From NCBI RefSeq assembly GCF_025717045.1, contig NZ_JAOVZN010000005.1, positions 1 to 64,000 of the forward strand: a DNA stretch of 64,000 bases, written 5' to 3'. This stretch comes from Flavobacterium sp. SH_e (GTDB lineage Bacteria > Bacteroidota > Bacteroidia > Flavobacteriales > Flavobacteriaceae). The notes beneath the pieces are model-generated. The model was not told the DNA's origin and did no database searches. It saw nothing but the letters and a program-made list of their open reading frames with translations. This document shows positions 30,204 through 37,337 of the stretch, in pieces. Each line of letters starts with the position of its first letter. Position 1 is the stretch's first letter. Made by a program: the position numbers and the translations under genes.

Positions 30204-31637
30204 CTAGATTTTTAGAATGAGGTTTTCGTCTCCTTCAGTTTGTCTATTTATAGCATTTTTTGGAGCTTCCATCCAACCTGTTTTATTAATGACAAACTTA
30301 AAAAGATGCGTTTTGTCTTTTTCAAATTGTGATTTAGGAACTGATAGTTCAAATTTGTTTTTGCTTTTCTGAATCATTTGAAAATTACTGTCATTTGGAT
30401 TCCACTTGTCAAAAGAACCTGCGATAGAGACACTTTTAACTAAATTAGGATCTAAGTTTTTATCATGTTCATAAACAAACACAACATTATCGTCTATGAT
30501 TTTGTAACCATAAATTCCAGTTTGTTTTTTGTTTTCAGTCAATAAATCATTAGAAAGTCTAACAATTGCTTCGCCTAAAGCATTTGCAGTACTTTCGTCA
30601 CTTATATTTACAATAATTGAAATTCCTAATTGACGTTCTGGATAAATAATTAGCATATTTTGAGTTCCAAATGCACCTCCATGTTTCCAACAGTTTTTTC
30701 CGTTTTCGTCGACTTGAATATAATCCCAAAAATAACCGTTCCAAGTTGTTGGACTGTTTAATAGATTTCGCTGAGATTCTTGAACAATTTTATTTTTTGT
30801 ATTTAATTCATAACTAATAAATTTGGTCAAGTCACTTAAAGTAGATTTTAATCTTCCTGCAGCTCCCCAAAGATTATCTGAAATCGTTGGCATTAAAACT
30901 CCTTTCAAATTATAGCCATTAGCAATTACAGTATTAGGACTTACATTTATACCACTTGATTGCATATTCAACTTTGAAAAAATATTTTCCTTTAAAAGCG
31001 TTTCGTAACTTTTCTGATAAACATTTTCTAGAATATGTGCCGTCAAATTAAGGCTTCCATTGCTGTATTTAAATTTAGTTCCAGGTAAAGTGTCTAATTT
31101 AACGGTTTTAAGATCCTCAAAGAAGTTTTCGCGAGTATAATTCTCATCCATTTTTTTGAATGCTAAATAACTGCTGTCGTTTCTGTTTTTTCTTAACTCT
31201 GAATTGTCTGGAAGATCTTTGTCAAAACCAGTTCTAAAAGAAACCAAATCTTTAATTGTAATTGGTATTCCATTATATTCTAAGTTCGGGTAAGAACCGG
31301 TAATGTATTTTCTAATATCATCATCTGGATTTAGTTTTCCTTCTAAAACTGCCTGAGCAGCAAGTAATCCAGTGAATAATTTAGTAATGGACGCAACTTC
31401 AAAAATGGTATTATTGTTGGCTATATTTTCTTTTCCTTTGTCAATTTCTCCGTAATGTCTGGTGTATGTTTTTCCATTTTTAACAACGCCAATTGAGATA
31501 GAATTCGCTTTTGATTTATTAGAAAGTATCGAAGCAGTTTTATCCATTGCAATAAAAATACTTTTATCAATGGTGTTTTTCTGTGCTAGTATAGAAAAAC
31601 TTAAACACAAAAATAAAATTGAAATATTTTTTTTCAT
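30204..31637 (-). CDS. Secreted serine hydrolase (beta-lactamase family) with C-terminal glycogen-binding-like domain
   Basis: 477 residues. Signal peptide ending SILAQK; a class C beta-lactamase/PBP4*-like domain (about 25-380) with SITK (Ser83 and Lys86), a tyrosine motif YSNGS and WKHGG. After about residue 390 a separate E-set domain shows VSIAGSFDKWNP and FKFVINKTGWMEAP, like the AMPK/CBM48 glycogen-binding fold. It may hydrolyse esters, D-amino acid peptides or beta-lactams in the periplasm. The tail could bind glycan. True resistance activity is unlikely without specific evidence. Confidence 0.82.
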   Translation of the reverse strand: MKKNISILFLCLSFSILAQKNTIDKSIFIAMDKTASILSNKSKANSISIGVVKNGKTYTRHYGEIDKGKENIANNNTIFEVASITKLFTGLLAAQAVLEGKLNPDDDIRKYITGSYPNLEYNGIPITIKDLVSFRTGFDKDLPDNSELRKNRNDSSYLAFKKMDENYTRENFFEDLKTVKLDTLPGTKFKYSNGSLNLTAHILENVYQKSYETLLKENIFSKLNMQSSGINVSPNTVIANGYNLKGVLMPTISDNLWGAAGRLKSTLSDLTKFISYELNTKNKIVQESQRNLLNSPTTWNGYFWDYIQVDENGKNCWKHGGAFGTQNMLIIYPERQLGISIIVNISDESTANALGEAIVRLSNDLLTENKKQTGIYGYKIIDDNVVFVYEHDKNLDPNLVKSVSIAGSFDKWNPNDSNFQMIQKSKNKFELSVPKSQFEKDKTHLFKFVINKTGWMEAPKNAINRQTEGDENLILKI

Positions 31638-31720: not shown

Positions 31721-33568
31721 TTAAGCTTTTTTATTTTCTTTTTCCCAAGCTTTCATGTCTTTTTCATGCTGTTTCATGTCTTTAGCGTGTTGCTTCATAT
31801 CTTTAGCATGTTGTTTCATATCTTTTTCGTGCTGTTTCATATCAAGTTCATACTGCTTCATGTCTTGCTCGTATTGCTTCATGCTATTTTCATAATCTTG
31901 AGAGTTATCTCCAAATTTGAATTTAAAGTCATAATTGAATTTCTCCATATTAGCACTGAATTTTTCCATCGCGATTTCATATTTCGCCATTTCTTTTTCA
32001 TAATCAGCTGATCTTTGAGACATGATAGCTTCAATTTGCTTTTCATAGGCATCCATTTGTGGTTCAAATGATTCCATCTGCTTTTCGAACGCTTCCATTT
32101 CTTTTTCAAACTTACTCATTGCAACTTTATCATTCGGATTCTTTGGTGCAACTGGAGGTTTTGGCATTTTTGACATGTCTATTGCTGGAGCAGGAGGCAG
32201 TGGTCCTGAAGGAAATGAAGGTGGAGTTGGAGGTGTTGGAGGAACAATATCTCCGTTACGAACAATTACTCTCTCATTTCTGATAATTATCGGTGTTCTA
32301 AAGTTTTTATCAGTATTGATAACAATAGCTTTTGTTCCATTTTCGTCAGTACCTATTGCAAGCTCGCAATCTTTTATAGCTTGGTCTCCGTCAATTTTGA
32401 TCGTTTGTTTTTTACCAGAATCTGATTTTACTTTGATCTGAATTGCAGTTAACTCTTCTTTCGTATTTCTTTTTACGTCAGAAATTTCAACATCAAGATT
32501 ATGATTTGCTTTTAATTTTCCTGGTAATTCGTTTAACTCTTTATCAGTTGTATTTTTTGTTATCTTGATAGTTTCGTCAGAATCTTTAACGGTGTCTCTT
32601 TTTATGATAGCGATATCATCTTGTTTTTTTTCCTGAGCAATTGTCTTTATTTGAAATAAAAGGACAAATGCACCAAGAGCAGGAATTACTGCCGAATATT
32701 TCCAGTAATTTCTTTTGTTTGATTGATTTTTGTTTAACATAACAATTCGTTTTTTGATTAATGATTGATAAAAATGATTGGTGATTGCAACACAAGTTTC
32801 ATGTGTTGTTATTTTTAAAAGCGTGTATTGATACGCTTTTTTGTCTGAAATTTTCTTCGCTGCTTCACTATCAGCAATAAATTCAAGATTTTGTAAAATA
32901 GCTTTTTTGTAAAGCCATACAATTGGGTTAAACCAAAATAGGATACAGAATATTCTAGAAATTAAAACATCAACGGTATGTTTTTGATCACTGTGTACTT
33001 TTTCATGTTCTAGAATATTTTCTAGTTCTGCTGCCGTGTATAGTGATGAGTTATACACGATGTAATCGAAATAAGAAAAAGGAGCAATATTTTCATTGAC
33101 GTCAATAAATTTAAAATCATCTTGCTGTTTTACTTTTTTTCCTTTTAAGACAGAGTTTAAGCTGTAAAAATCAAGTGCAAATTTGGTCATGAAAGCCAAG
33201 AAACCAATTCCGTATGCAAGACCTAAAACTAAATTCCAATTGATCTCAAAACTTTCTTCCTCAACGGCATTTACTGTTGTCGGTCTATACTGAGGTTCAT
33301 ATGCAATAACATCATGATTTGAAGTTGGAATATTTTCAACCGTATTTCTCACAATAACAGGATCTGGAGCCAGTGTAGGCGGCGCTTCAATCCAAATTAC
33401 TTTGGTATAAACGACAAAAGGAAGTACAACAGAAGTAATTAATCCAGCGATTAAAAACCAGCGGCTGCTGTTAAAAAAAGTTTCTTTGCGAAGTAAAAAA
33501 ATGTAAGCAAAATAGAACATTGCCAACAACCCGCTTGATTTTAAGATAAAAATGAAAAGTGCTTCCAT
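31721..33568 (-). CDS. BlaR1-like M56 metallopeptidase with coiled-coil tail
   Basis: 615 residues. Three N-terminal helices, then HEKVH (188-192) zinc protease motif of M56 and a fourth helix at about 293-312 (VIPALGAFVLLFQ). The periplasmic part has a Pro-rich linker (PPTPPTPPSFP, about residue 452-) and a long Lys/Glu/Met-rich tail with repeated seven-residue units (MKQYEQD, MKQHEKD, MKQHAKD). In BlaR1 the M56 domain cleaves the repressor BlaI after ligand binding outside; here the penicillin-binding domain is absent and the tail is the likely sensor. Last gene of a four-gene operon. Confidence 0.85.
   Translation of the reverse strand: MEALFIFILKSSGLLAMFYFAYIFLLRKETFFNSSRWFLIAGLITSVVLPFVVYTKVIWIEAPPTLAPDPVIVRNTVENIPTSNHDVIAYEPQYRPTTVNAVEEESFEINWNLVLGLAYGIGFLAFMTKFALDFYSLNSVLKGKKVKQQDDFKFIDVNENIAPFSYFDYIVYNSSLYTAAELENILEHEKVHSDQKHTVDVLISRIFCILFWFNPIVWLYKKAILQNLEFIADSEAAKKISDKKAYQYTLLKITTHETCVAITNHFYQSLIKKRIVMLNKNQSNKRNYWKYSAVIPALGAFVLLFQIKTIAQEKKQDDIAIIKRDTVKDSDETIKITKNTTDKELNELPGKLKANHNLDVEISDVKRNTKEELTAIQIKVKSDSGKKQTIKIDGDQAIKDCELAIGTDENGTKAIVINTDKNFRTPIIIRNERVIVRNGDIVPPTPPTPPSFPSGPLPPAPAIDMSKMPKPPVAPKNPNDKVAMSKFEKEMEAFEKQMESFEPQMDAYEKQIEAIMSQRSADYEKEMAKYEIAMEKFSANMEKFNYDFKFKFGDNSQDYENSMKQYEQDMKQYELDMKQHEKDMKQHAKDMKQHAKDMKQHEKDMKAWEKENKKA
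31736..31882 (-). repeat. Seven 21-bp tandem units within the M56 gene
   Basis: Residues 563-611 are seven consecutive heptads (MKQYEQD, MKQYELD, MKQHEKD, MKQHAKD twice, MKQHEKD, MKAWEKE) with a matching 21-bp DNA repeat. The sequence favours a helical, probably coiled-coil, tail and is prone to copy-number change. Confidence 0.85.
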
Positions 33569-33578
33569 AATATTTTGA

Positions 33579-33947
33579 TTATTTACCTTCTTTTGGATTT
33601 TCGATCATATCTAAGATTTCGCGTAACTCATCTGCCGAAATTTTTTCTTCTTTAGCAAAAAACGAAACCATGCTTTTATAAGAACTATTAAAATAATTGT
33701 CAATTGCAGTACTCATAAAGCCTTTTCGATAATCTTCAATACTTACAGCTGGATAATATTGATGTGTATTTCCAAAAGCATTGTGAGCAACATAACCTTT
33801 CTCTTCCAAATTACGAACAATGGTAGACAAAGTATTGTAATGCGGCTGATCTTCTAAAATCTCTGCTTGAATTTCTTTTACAAAAGCCTTTTTCAACTTC
33901 CATAAGATATGCATGATTTCTTCTTCTTTGTTGGTTAGTTTTTGCAT
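33579..33947 (-). CDS. BlaI/MecI-type transcriptional repressor (copy 2)
   Basis: 122 residues. Winged helix-turn-helix with LTNKEEEIMHILWKLKKAFVKEI and TLSTIVRNLEEKGYVAHNAFGNTHQYYP, then a dimerisation helix (DELREILDMIEN). Close paralogue of the protein at 35587-35955, identical across most of the DNA-binding half. In the BlaI family the repressor is inactivated by cleavage after signalling by the M56 protein encoded next to it. It has no promoter of its own, lying 18 bases after the first M56 gene. Confidence 0.92.
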   Translation of the reverse strand: MQKLTNKEEEIMHILWKLKKAFVKEIQAEILEDQPHYNTLSTIVRNLEEKGYVAHNAFGNTHQYYPAVSIEDYRKGFMSTAIDNYFNSSYKSMVSFFAKEEKISADELREILDMIENPKEGK

Positions 33948-33965: not shown

Positions 33966-35579
33966 TTACTCACGAGTTTCAATTTCAATAACGCCATTTG
34001 CACCAGCTTCGCCAAATTGAGCAATTGCATCTATACCTTTATATATGTGCATAGTTTTAATATCACGAGGTTGTATATCTTCTAGATTAAAATTGCTTGG
34101 CATTACATTTCCATCCACGATTATAAGTTTTTTTCCGTTAAGAGAAACTTTACTTGAACTTGAAACGACAATTTTTGGCCCATTTTCAGATGTTGTTATT
34201 GTGGTAACATTGTTGTCTTTATTTGTCGTTACAATAGTGCTAATATTTGTATTAGTATCACTGTTAGTTTTTGTACTAGTAATAGAATTAGTGTTAACAT
34301 GGGTTTCTGTATTAGTAGTTATATTTTTGTTTTCTATTGTTTTTGCAGTAACTTTCACTTTGTCGTTCGAACTTACTTTTTTGCTAACAACAATTTTTTC
34401 GTCTGATGTTTGTATGCCAGCTTTTTTGCTTCCATCTTTATCTGTAATAACGACTATTCCAAAATCTTTGATGGTTTTATCTCCAACTTGTATTGATTGT
34501 GTTTTCTCGCTACCATTAATTACATCAACTTTAATAGATGTCAATAGATTTTGCGAGTTTCTTTTGATTTCAGAAACTTTAAAATCAATATTGTGAATTG
34601 ATTTTAAGTTCGCTTTAAGTTCTTTTAATTCTGCATCTGTAGAGTTTTTCGTGATTTTGTAAACATTTACAGATTCAGTTCCTGTCGAAACCGCTTTTAA
34701 ATTCTGCTGTCTTTCTTTTGCAATTACTTCAATTTGAAATAATAATACAAATGCTGCAAGCGCAGGAATTACAACATAATACTTCCATGAATTCCTCTTT
34801 TTTGATTGATTTTTGTTTAACATGACGATTCGTTTTTTGATTAATGATTGATAAAAATGATTGGTGATTGCAACACAAGTTTCGTGTGTTGTTATTTTTA
34901 AAAGCGTGTATTGATAGGCTTTTTTATCTAAAATTTTTTTTGCAGCTTCTTTATCAGCAATAAATTCTAAATTTTGCATTATTGCTTTTTTATAAAGCCA
35001 AACAATTGGATTGAACCAGAAAATGATGCTGAATGCTCTAGAAATCAGTACGTCTATGGTGTGATTTTGATCGCTATGTACTTTTTCATGTTCAATAATA
35101 TTCTCTAATTCTGAAGGCGTGTATAGTGATGAGTTGTAAACGATATATTCAAAATAGGAGAAAGGCGCAATGTTTTCGTTTATGTCGATAAATTTAAAAT
35201 CGGCTTGCTGTTTTACTTTTTTTCCTTTAATAATGGTATTCAAACTATAGAAATCAATTCCTAGTTTTATGAAGAACACTAAAAATCCGATTGCGTAAAG
35301 GCCAAGAATTAGAAACGTCCAATTAAAATCGACAGCTTCTTCTTGTGAAACATTTACTAACGATGTTGAAATATTTGTATTTAAATCGTTTGTAGTATCA
35401 ATCCATATAACCTTTGTGTAACTTACTAATGGTAAAATTGAAGAAACAATTAATCCAGACAATAAAAACCATCTGTTGCTATTAAAAAATGTTTCTTTGC
35501 GAAGTAAGAAAAAGTAAACACAATAAAACAAAAGCATTAAGCTGCTTGATTTGGCGATATAAATGAAAACTGCTTCCAT
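33966..35579 (-). CDS. BlaR1-like M56 metallopeptidase with plug-like C-terminus
   Basis: 537 residues, paralogous with the 615-residue protein up to about residue 380 (HEKVH at 164-168; shared ITKNSTDAELKEL and VIPALAAFVLLFQIE segments). It then diverges: a Thr/Asn-rich stretch near 400-455, and a C-terminal 60 residues (KLIIVDGNVMP, DIKTMHIYKG, GEAGANGVIEIETRE) resembling the TonB-dependent-receptor plug, as in Bacteroidota SusC-like proteins. The plug-like part may be the periplasmic sensor. It follows blaI copy 1 by seven bases. Confidence 0.83.
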   Translation of the reverse strand: MEAVFIYIAKSSSLMLLFYCVYFFLLRKETFFNSNRWFLLSGLIVSSILPLVSYTKVIWIDTTNDLNTNISTSLVNVSQEEAVDFNWTFLILGLYAIGFLVFFIKLGIDFYSLNTIIKGKKVKQQADFKFIDINENIAPFSYFEYIVYNSSLYTPSELENIIEHEKVHSDQNHTIDVLISRAFSIIFWFNPIVWLYKKAIMQNLEFIADKEAAKKILDKKAYQYTLLKITTHETCVAITNHFYQSLIKKRIVMLNKNQSKKRNSWKYYVVIPALAAFVLLFQIEVIAKERQQNLKAVSTGTESVNVYKITKNSTDAELKELKANLKSIHNIDFKVSEIKRNSQNLLTSIKVDVINGSEKTQSIQVGDKTIKDFGIVVITDKDGSKKAGIQTSDEKIVVSKKVSSNDKVKVTAKTIENKNITTNTETHVNTNSITSTKTNSDTNTNISTIVTTNKDNNVTTITTSENGPKIVVSSSSKVSLNGKKLIIVDGNVMPSNFNLEDIQPRDIKTMHIYKGIDAIAQFGEAGANGVIEIETRE

Positions 35580-35586
35580 AAACCGA

Positions 35587-35955
35587 TTATTTTTCGTCGT
35601 TTTTATTTTCGATCATAGATAAAATTTCACGCAATTCATCTGCTGAAATTTTTTCTTCTTTGGCAAAAAAGGAAACCATACTTTTATAAGAACTATTAAA
35701 GTAATTATCAATTGCGGTTTTCATAAATCCTTTTCTGTAATCTTCAATTGCTACAACTGGAAAGTATTGATGTGTGTTTCCAAAAGCATTGTGTCCAACA
35801 TATCCTTTTTCTTCCAGATTACGAACAATTGTCGACAATGTGTTATAATGTGGCTGATCTTCTGTGATTTCAGCTTGAATTTCTTTTACAAAAGCTTTTT
35901 TAAGCTTCCATAAAATCATCATAATTTCTTCTTCTTTGTTTGTTAACTTCTGCAT
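35587..35955 (-). CDS. BlaI/MecI-type transcriptional repressor (copy 1)
   Basis: 122 residues, winged helix-turn-helix as in copy 2 (LTNKEEEIMMILWKLKKAFVKEI), with a dimerisation tail DELREILSMIEN. First gene of the four-gene operon; its start is about 18 bases behind the promoter -7 box and is preceded by three palindromic operator candidates, which implies autoregulation. Confidence 0.93.
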   Translation of the reverse strand: MQKLTNKEEEIMMILWKLKKAFVKEIQAEITEDQPHYNTLSTIVRNLEEKGYVGHNAFGNTHQYFPVVAIEDYRKGFMKTAIDNYFNSSYKSMVSFFAKEEKISADELREILSMIENKNDEK

Positions 35956-35972: not shown

Positions 35973-36003
35973 CAAACCTACAACTATTTTTTTAGTTACA
36001 CAA
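35973..36003 (-). promoter_or_regulatory. Promoter of the blaI-blaR1 operon
   Basis: Minus-strand TTG (36003-36001), 20 bases, TAGGTTTG (35980-35973), matching the TTG-N17-23-TAnnTTTG pattern. The transcript would start near 35969, about 14 bases before blaI. Confidence 0.7.
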
Positions 36004-36038
36004 CTATAAAAGTAGTTATTTAACTAAAAATTAAGTTG
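35981..36038. promoter_or_regulatory. Three 18-bp palindromic operator candidates, 20 bp apart
   Basis: Sites at 35981-35998 (CAACTATTTTTTTAGTTA), 36001-36018 (CAACTATAAAAGTAGTTA) and 36021-36038 (TAACTAAAAATTAAGTTG, inverted and one-off). Consensus CAACTA-N6-TAGTTA. Site 1 fills the spacer between -33 and -7; site 2 covers the -33 TTG. Expected BlaI binding sites. Confidence 0.7.
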
Positions 36039-36119: not shown

Positions 36120-37337
36120 TTATGAAGCTTTCTCGTTGGTTAAAGCATTTTTAATCCAAATACAGCATCCAGTTGCAACCACACCAATACTTGCCATAAA
36201 AAACCAGTTAATTTGGTAACCAAATCTGGTAATAATCTCAAAGCCAAGTTTTGAACTGACAATATGTGCAAGACTAAAACTCATTGTATAAAGAGCCATA
36301 TATCGGCCTTCTTGTCCGCGTGGAGCACGGCTTAAGGCAAAAGCATTAGAAAATGGAAAAGTAAGAACTTCACCAATCGAAATACAAACCATACTTACAA
36401 CCAATATTCCAGCCCAGAAATTAATAAGAAGCAAAAAGAAACTAGAAGCCAATACAAAAGAACCTATAATAATGATTCGAATCTTCGGAAAGGCTTTTCG
36501 TTCTAAAAATCCAACTGTTGGCATTTCTAGAGAAAATATTAATAATCCGTTTAAGGTCATTAGTAAACCAGTTTGGAATTCGCTTAAACCAAATTTTTCA
36601 TTATGATATAATGGAAGAGTAGTAAATAACTGGAAGAAAATCATAGCTGTAATAAAGCTTACAAATAAGAAAACCCAGAATATTTTATCATGAAAAACCG
36701 ACTTTACATCAGAAGCGCTTTCTGCTTTATCATCGTGGGCTGCCTTTTTCTTTTCTTTTACCAGTAAAGCAAAAATCGAGATCGAAATAATACAAGAAGC
36801 TCCGTCAACCCAAAATAATCCTGAATATCCCATTCCCATAATAATTAAACCTCCAAGAGCTGGCCCTGCAGCAAAACCTAAATTTACAGCAAGGCGCACA
36901 AGTGTTAGCGCGCGAGTTCTGTTTTCTGGTTTTGCATAAGCTCCAAGAGAAACAAACATCGCGGGTCTAAACATATCGGCAATTGTCATAAGAACAAACA
37001 TTGCAGCACAAAGAGCCCAGAAAGTTGTAATATATTGCACAAAGAAAAGAGAAACTCCACTAGTAAATAAGCTAAAAATCATGATTTTATAGAATCCGAT
37101 TTTATCTGAAAGTTTACCGCCAAGCCAAGAACCCAGCATTGATCCAAAACCAAATGAAACCATAATCCACCCAACTTGATTGTACGAAAAATGAAGATCT
37201 TCTTTTAAATATTTGGATAAAAAAGGAAGAACCATTGTTCCGGCGCGGTTGATAAAAGTGATGATGGCAAGAATCCAAACTTCTCTGGTGAAACCTCGAA
37301 AGTTGTTAATGTAGTGGGTTAAAGCAGTTTTAAGCAT
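36120..37337 (-). CDS. MFS transporter
   Basis: 405 residues, 12 predicted helices, with the motif-A loop GSWLGGKLSDKIGFYKI between helices 2 and 3. Similar to MdtH-like drug efflux permeases, but the substrate cannot be assigned. Its CAAAGTTA complement (37360-37367) is a TAACTTTG -7 element on the minus strand. It lies behind the blaI operon promoter region on the same strand and is independently transcribed. Confidence 0.82.
   Translation of the reverse strand: MLKTALTHYINNFRGFTREVWILAIITFINRAGTMVLPFLSKYLKEDLHFSYNQVGWIMVSFGFGSMLGSWLGGKLSDKIGFYKIMIFSLFTSGVSLFFVQYITTFWALCAAMFVLMTIADMFRPAMFVSLGAYAKPENRTRALTLVRLAVNLGFAAGPALGGLIIMGMGYSGLFWVDGASCIISISIFALLVKEKKKAAHDDKAESASDVKSVFHDKIFWVFLFVSFITAMIFFQLFTTLPLYHNEKFGLSEFQTGLLMTLNGLLIFSLEMPTVGFLERKAFPKIRIIIIGSFVLASSFFLLLINFWAGILVVSMVCISIGEVLTFPFSNAFALSRAPRGQEGRYMALYTMSFSLAHIVSSKLGFEIITRFGYQINWFFMASIGVVATGCCIWIKNALTNEKAS

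Follow-up and report, generated by a model that had tools for sequence, protein, structure and literature searches.

A dyad array with an exact 20-bp step as the probable autoregulatory BlaI operator of a duplicated blaI-M56 operon in Flavobacterium

The window analysed here, 64,000 nucleotides of Flavobacterium sp. SH_e (contig NZ_JAOVZN010000005.1), carries a blaI-M56-blaI-M56 operon whose promoter is overlaid by three consecutive dyads. Comparisons across genomes make it very probable that this array is the autoregulatory operator-promoter of the duplicated operon, bound by BlaI dimers repressing their own operon. The sites, their spacing, their phase to the promoter, their conservation and their link to blaI were established by computation. 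The array and the promoter consist of the following elements:

36022..36037, minus strand: distal dyad O3, one mismatch (ACTT for ACTA), recovered in the one-mismatch tandem pair match 36003-36036
36002..36017, minus strand: middle dyad O2, an exact site, whose promoter-proximal edge TAGTTG provides the -33 TTG
35982..35997, minus strand: proximal dyad O1, AACTA-N6-TAGTT, an exact site spanning the -33/-7 spacer
36003-36001, minus strand: -33 TTG element, assigned from sequence, its G conserved in 86 of 101 upstream regions
35980-35973, minus strand: -7 element TAGGTTTG, assigned from sequence by the TAnnTTTG consensus and its fixed phase to O1
35968, minus strand: predicted transcription start, with the box at -12 to -5 and a leader of about 12-13 nt to the ATG, inferred from the geometry in PMC9723704

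The original prediction described three 18-bp palindromes at 20-bp intervals on this promoter. All three sites were recovered: CAACTA-N6-TAGTTA occurs exactly on the plus strand at 35981 and 36001, and with one mismatch on the minus strand at 36021-36038. The number of palindromes and the 20-bp steps stand, but the length of 18 bp does not; the terminal C and A fall outside the true symmetry, which is that of the 16-bp AACTA-N6-TAGTT core. As 14-mers the dyads lie at 36023-36036, 36003-36016 and 35983-35996, a step of exactly 20 bp, and the minus-strand promoter region of the blaI operon (locus L013) reads ACAACTTAATTTTTAGTTAAATAACTACTTTTATAGTTGTGTAACTAAAAAAATAGTTGTAGGTTTGAATTAAAATTAGAGAAGATG. 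A 20-bp-spaced dyad pair or triple was found in none of 300 dinucleotide-preserving shuffles of the whole window, and none of 20,000 such shuffles of the 164-bp intergenic region contained a pair or triple. The further claim that all dimers would sit on one face of the DNA holds roughly, not exactly, since 20 bp corresponds to 1.9 turns at 10.5 bp per turn. The computed helical offset is about 34 degrees between successive dimers and about 69 degrees between the outer two; 34 degrees is predicted to be close enough for contact between neighbouring BlaI dimers.

A genome scan, proposed along with the original prediction, was run on single dyads and returned 8 places versus 35 for a reversed control. 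Single dyads are thus not enriched genome-wide, the signal resides in the array, and single sites were not used to define a regulon. Tandem matches with up to three mismatches in the same genome were also fewer than in the control (20 vs. 60); those with zero or one mismatch were two blaI promoters only, and this search gave no extra trans target in the window's own genome.

The promoter elements sit on the minus strand where they had been placed, with a 20-bp spacer between the TTG and TAGGTTTG. The TTG was assigned as -33 element in the original prediction, which fits the usual layout of Bacteroidota promoters. The promoter is of the Bacteroidota type (TTG, 20 bp, TAGGTTTG), with O1 occupying its spacer, and drives the whole blaI-M56-blaI-M56 unit. 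For the primary sigma factor of Flavobacterium, the -7 element has the consensus TAnnTTTG and covers -12 to -5 (PMC9723704). A dimer bound on O1 or O2 would exclude RNA polymerase. Downstream of the promoter, the operon comprises:

35587..35955, minus strand: blaI copy 1, a BlaI/MecI-type winged-helix repressor of 122 aa (PF03965, MecI structure match)
33966..35579, minus strand: M56 (BlaR1-like) membrane metallopeptidase 1, with an HEKVH motif (PF05569 only, E 1e-13)
33579..33947, minus strand: blaI copy 2, 91% identical to copy 1, with no upstream dyads (PF03965)
31721..33568, minus strand: M56 (BlaR1-like) membrane metallopeptidase 2, with an HEKVH motif (PF05569)
31704-31672, minus strand: terminator-like hairpin of 13 pairs closing the operon

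PF03965 covered the full protein for both BlaIs, well above the cut-off (E 3.9e-30 and 5.5e-31), and a MecI structure chain was matched at E 2e-9. The NCBIfam BlaI, MecI and CopY models all scored far below their cut-offs for these proteins, which are therefore not staphylococcal, Bacillus or copper equivalogs. Both M56 proteins contain the PF05569 domain and the HExxH motif and are 63% identical across 420 columns; together with the 91% identity of the BlaIs, this indicates a tandem duplication of the blaI-M56 unit. The blaR1_generic model matched only their protease region, scoring 35-39 bits where its cut-off is 400, and Pfam detected no extracytoplasmic penicillin-binding (transpeptidase-type) sensor domain in either, so that induction by beta-lactams is not to be assumed. 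The C-terminus of M56 protein 1 showed a weak, below-cut-off resemblance to the SusC/RagA signature; this end resembles a TonB-receptor plug motif, unlike M56 protein 2 (31721-33568), which ends in a proline-rich stretch followed by a repetitive charged tail (KQHEKDMKQHAKDMKQ..). A PF00144 serine hydrolase at 30204-31637 was rejected as an operon member because the terminator-like hairpin intervenes, and no dyad array was present upstream of it.

Conservation was assessed with the exact 34-bp tandem pattern ACTA-N6-TAGT-N6-ACTA-N6-TAGT, the reversed pattern serving as control. Of 299 Flavobacterium genomes, 213 contained the tandem pattern and 2 the control; of 299 Flavobacteriaceae genomes, 135 contained it, representing 115 of 236 genera, and none the control. 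A phylum-wide search found it in 47 of 395 genomes (control, 1), including 22 from other families of the same class; there, none of the 8 genomes from another family within the order had it, nor did any genome outside the class. One locus from another family of this class (L117:1501-1594) has five ACTA-N6-TAGT dyads in a row upstream of its BlaI gene, each exactly 20 bp from the next.

The pattern was closely linked to blaI. At 81 of 87 tandem loci found by the DNA pattern alone, a BlaI gene lay within the fetched stretch of about 1.5 kb (29/30, 27/30 and 25/27 in the three sets), mostly directly downstream. Among Flavobacterium genomes, 212 of 245 with a BlaI orthologue carried the tandem pattern versus 1 of 54 without (Fisher p ~1e-34). 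The perfect tandem pair was absent from the other 33 orthologue-bearing genomes, some of which have near matches, e.g. L232.

Spacing was examined in 166 distinct upstream regions from loci picked by BlaI protein similarity alone, with dyad pairs counted at no more than one mismatch per dyad. A perfect dyad was present in 106 of these regions and two or more dyads in 101. Pairs were spaced by 20 bp in 195 cases and by 40 bp in 89, and spacings of 19 or 21 bp did not occur among the 166 regions. The -7 box begins 16 bp past the start of the proximal 14-mer in 104 of the 106 regions. Across the 101 orthologous upstream regions with at least two dyads, ACTA-N6-TAGT was invariant in the proximal dyad, and O3 was less conserved than O1 and O2. 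On reading the sequences, the 60 regions that lack a perfect dyad were nearly all second blaI copies that follow an M56-type gene; L232, with its three one-mismatch dyads, is an exception. These internal copies are a natural control, having a near-identical protein and no dyads. At L033 and L042 a GC-richer, repeat-like element (GCGTTAAGGATT..GGCGGTATCC..CCCGCCCTTGCGGG..) lies between promoter and blaI; here and at further loci whose proximal dyad is 125-284 bp away from the ATG, it lengthens the leader and leaves the operator undisturbed.

Two further BlaI genes occur in the same genome, one solo on contig C16 and another on C19. Upstream of the solo C16 gene, ACTAATTAATTAGT dyads lie 40 bp apart, and a dyad with one mismatch sits midway, 20 bp from either. 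A solo blaI with no adjoining M56 gene at L003:1486-1848 has three upstream dyads at 20-bp steps, the outer two sharing an ATTAAT centre. The C19 gene is part of a run of genes, and at the start of this run TCTACATTTGTAGA and TCTATAATTGTAGA lie 20 bp apart. Of 299 Flavobacteriaceae genomes, 82 contained the corresponding TCTA-N6-TAGA tandem and 1 the control; when 30 of the loci were fetched, 29 adjoined a BlaI closest to the C19 protein. In this operator class (L267-L296) the third dyad is often 28 bp, rather than 20 or 40 bp, from its neighbour. Compared with one another, the ACTA, C16 and C19 operators have the register and the 20-bp step in common, while the base outside CTA is not the same throughout. 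In the protein alignment, the recognition region starts with H-Y-N in all 101 ACTA proteins and the C16 protein, and with A-x-T in all 29 TCTA proteins. The ACTA/TCTA class thus appears to track recognition-helix residues, a correlation across orthologue groups. The repressor architecture for BlaI proposed in the original prediction is strongly supported by these comparisons, in that the dyads travel with blaI, their spacing and -7 phase are rigid, and the paralogues behave alike.

On BlaI's own promoter the dyads lie in the CTA-N6-TAG / TACA-N2-TGTA register. The inner TACA-N2-TGTA core is absent from the window's dyads, whose N6 is A/T-rich with no CA..TG, and is retained as TCTACATTTGTAGA in the paralogous C19 group. 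Staphylococcus and Bacillus BlaI-MecI systems share with this operon the Pfam family, a dimeric winged-helix repressor, an M56 protease in the operon and multiple operators over promoters, e.g. OP1-OP3 of B. licheniformis (PMC3305447). They differ in their TACA/TGTA operators with the inner CA..TG, in having a divergent blaP/blaZ target and in an M56 protein with a penicillin sensor domain. The CopY operator consensus is RNYKACANNTGTMRNY (PMC7253601). AACTA-N6-TAGTT matches all of its outer positions in the same register, and CopR-CopY systems also often have two operators; however, the distance between these is mostly 24-39 bases with a mode of 26, and the systems are copper-responsive and have no M56 protease (PMC7253601).

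In the Firmicute Clostridium thermocellum, DAP-seq and EMSA showed that BlaIs bind GACTAT or GTCTAT half-sites, and their targets have two inverted-repeat pairs upstream (PMC8457756). BlaI_0696 and BlaI_1845 resemble the present repressors in family, in ACTA/TCTA-class half-sites and in autoregulation, and one operon likewise has two BlaR1 genes. In contrast to the array described here there are two pairs, and the text consulted reports no fixed 20-bp rule or promoter phase; the GTCTAT repeats have a five-nucleotide inner spacing that may not equal the N6 here. This binding in vitro is the strongest experimental support, from another phylum, for such half-sites as BlaI sites. It also bears on whether the array could be the operator of a different regulator, with blaI merely the first gene of the regulated operon. 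BlaI binding at the window's sites is a prediction and their inner bases depart from the classical TACA-N2-TGTA, but the sites vanish where blaI is missing (1/54 vs. 212/245), three BlaI paralogue groups each have their own dyad variant at the same 20-bp step, and the half-sites match those bound by the C. thermocellum BlaIs. We consider a different regulator very unlikely.

Still less credible is a role of the repeats in RNA, as a terminator or hairpin ending the upstream transporter gene. The inverted repeats are A+T-rich and lie downstream of a same-strand MFS gene (36120-37337), and one family match, L083, is terminator-like. A terminator would not account for the fixed 20-bp step, the fixed phase to the -7 box or the recurring association with a downstream blaI across genomes, and the internal bases vary with pairing not kept. 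We give equally little weight to genuine BlaI sites whose array serves in activation or DNA bending rather than in repression. Placed upstream of the -33 element, the distal dyad could suit activation, but the two most conserved dyads lie over the -33 element and the spacer, where they should block RNA polymerase, and the characterised BlaI, MecI and CopY proteins are repressors.

For autorepression by BlaI, we infer binding, promoter occlusion, repression, cooperativity and proteolytic release from the BlaI family. BlaI dimers would sit on two or three dyads in a row, all of which have the CTA-N6-TAG register that is standard for BlaI/CopY. The proposed proximal dimer would fill the sigma-A promoter spacer and the middle dimer would cover the -33 TTG, so that RNA polymerase would be kept off; the weaker distal dyad probably stabilises the complex via dimer-dimer contact along the DNA. 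Once signalled, the M56 protease would cleave BlaI or trigger its loss, and release of BlaI would switch on the operon along with other targets, if there are any.

Six of the 87 pattern loci had no BlaI gene in the fetched stretch. The tandem match at L083 was rejected as a target, being terminator-like. The others are candidate trans targets:

L048 (same site as L073): upstream of a GLPGLI protein and an outer-membrane protein
L094: upstream of a PF00144 serine hydrolase
L081: upstream of an esterase-like protein
L113: upstream of an ABC permease
L118: upstream of a TonB-domain protein

A second site in one genome, L077, likewise precedes a PF00144 hydrolase and is a further candidate. At L094 and L113 the -7 box keeps its +16 position relative to the proximal dyad. 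The PF00144 hydrolase adjoining the window's operon (30204-31637) has a beta-lactamase/AmpH-like fold, and its relatives at L077 and L094 carry the dyad array on promoters of their own.

A literature search with partial coverage found no study of a BlaI operator, of BlaI binding or of its transcription in Bacteroidota, and the array does not appear to have been described in Flavobacteriaceae and relatives. That BlaI acts on repeated dyads or operators is already known. What these sequence comparisons suggest as new is a 20-bp array rule common to three BlaI paralogues, two half-site classes (ACTA and TCTA) that go together with the residues of the recognition helix, and a few candidate trans targets. 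As a tentative possibility, which we would not yet favour over its negation, Bacteroidota BlaI dimers may line up side by side as a short filament along two to five dyads, for which the 20-bp step would be obligatory. Paralogues would be separated by one outer base (ACTA vs. TCTA) read at the start of the recognition helix (H36-Y37-N38 vs. A36-x-T38), making insulated, protease-released switches whose signal would not be a beta-lactam.

BlaI-M56 pairs are common in Bacteroidota. The 34-bp pattern, with its near-zero background, locates BlaI-M56 promoters as well as unlinked candidate targets (PF00144-family serine hydrolases, a GLPGLI protein operon, an ABC permease and an esterase), which makes the regulon and the inducing signal directly testable. 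The array system also offers a compact case for how repressor paralogues avoid cross-talk.
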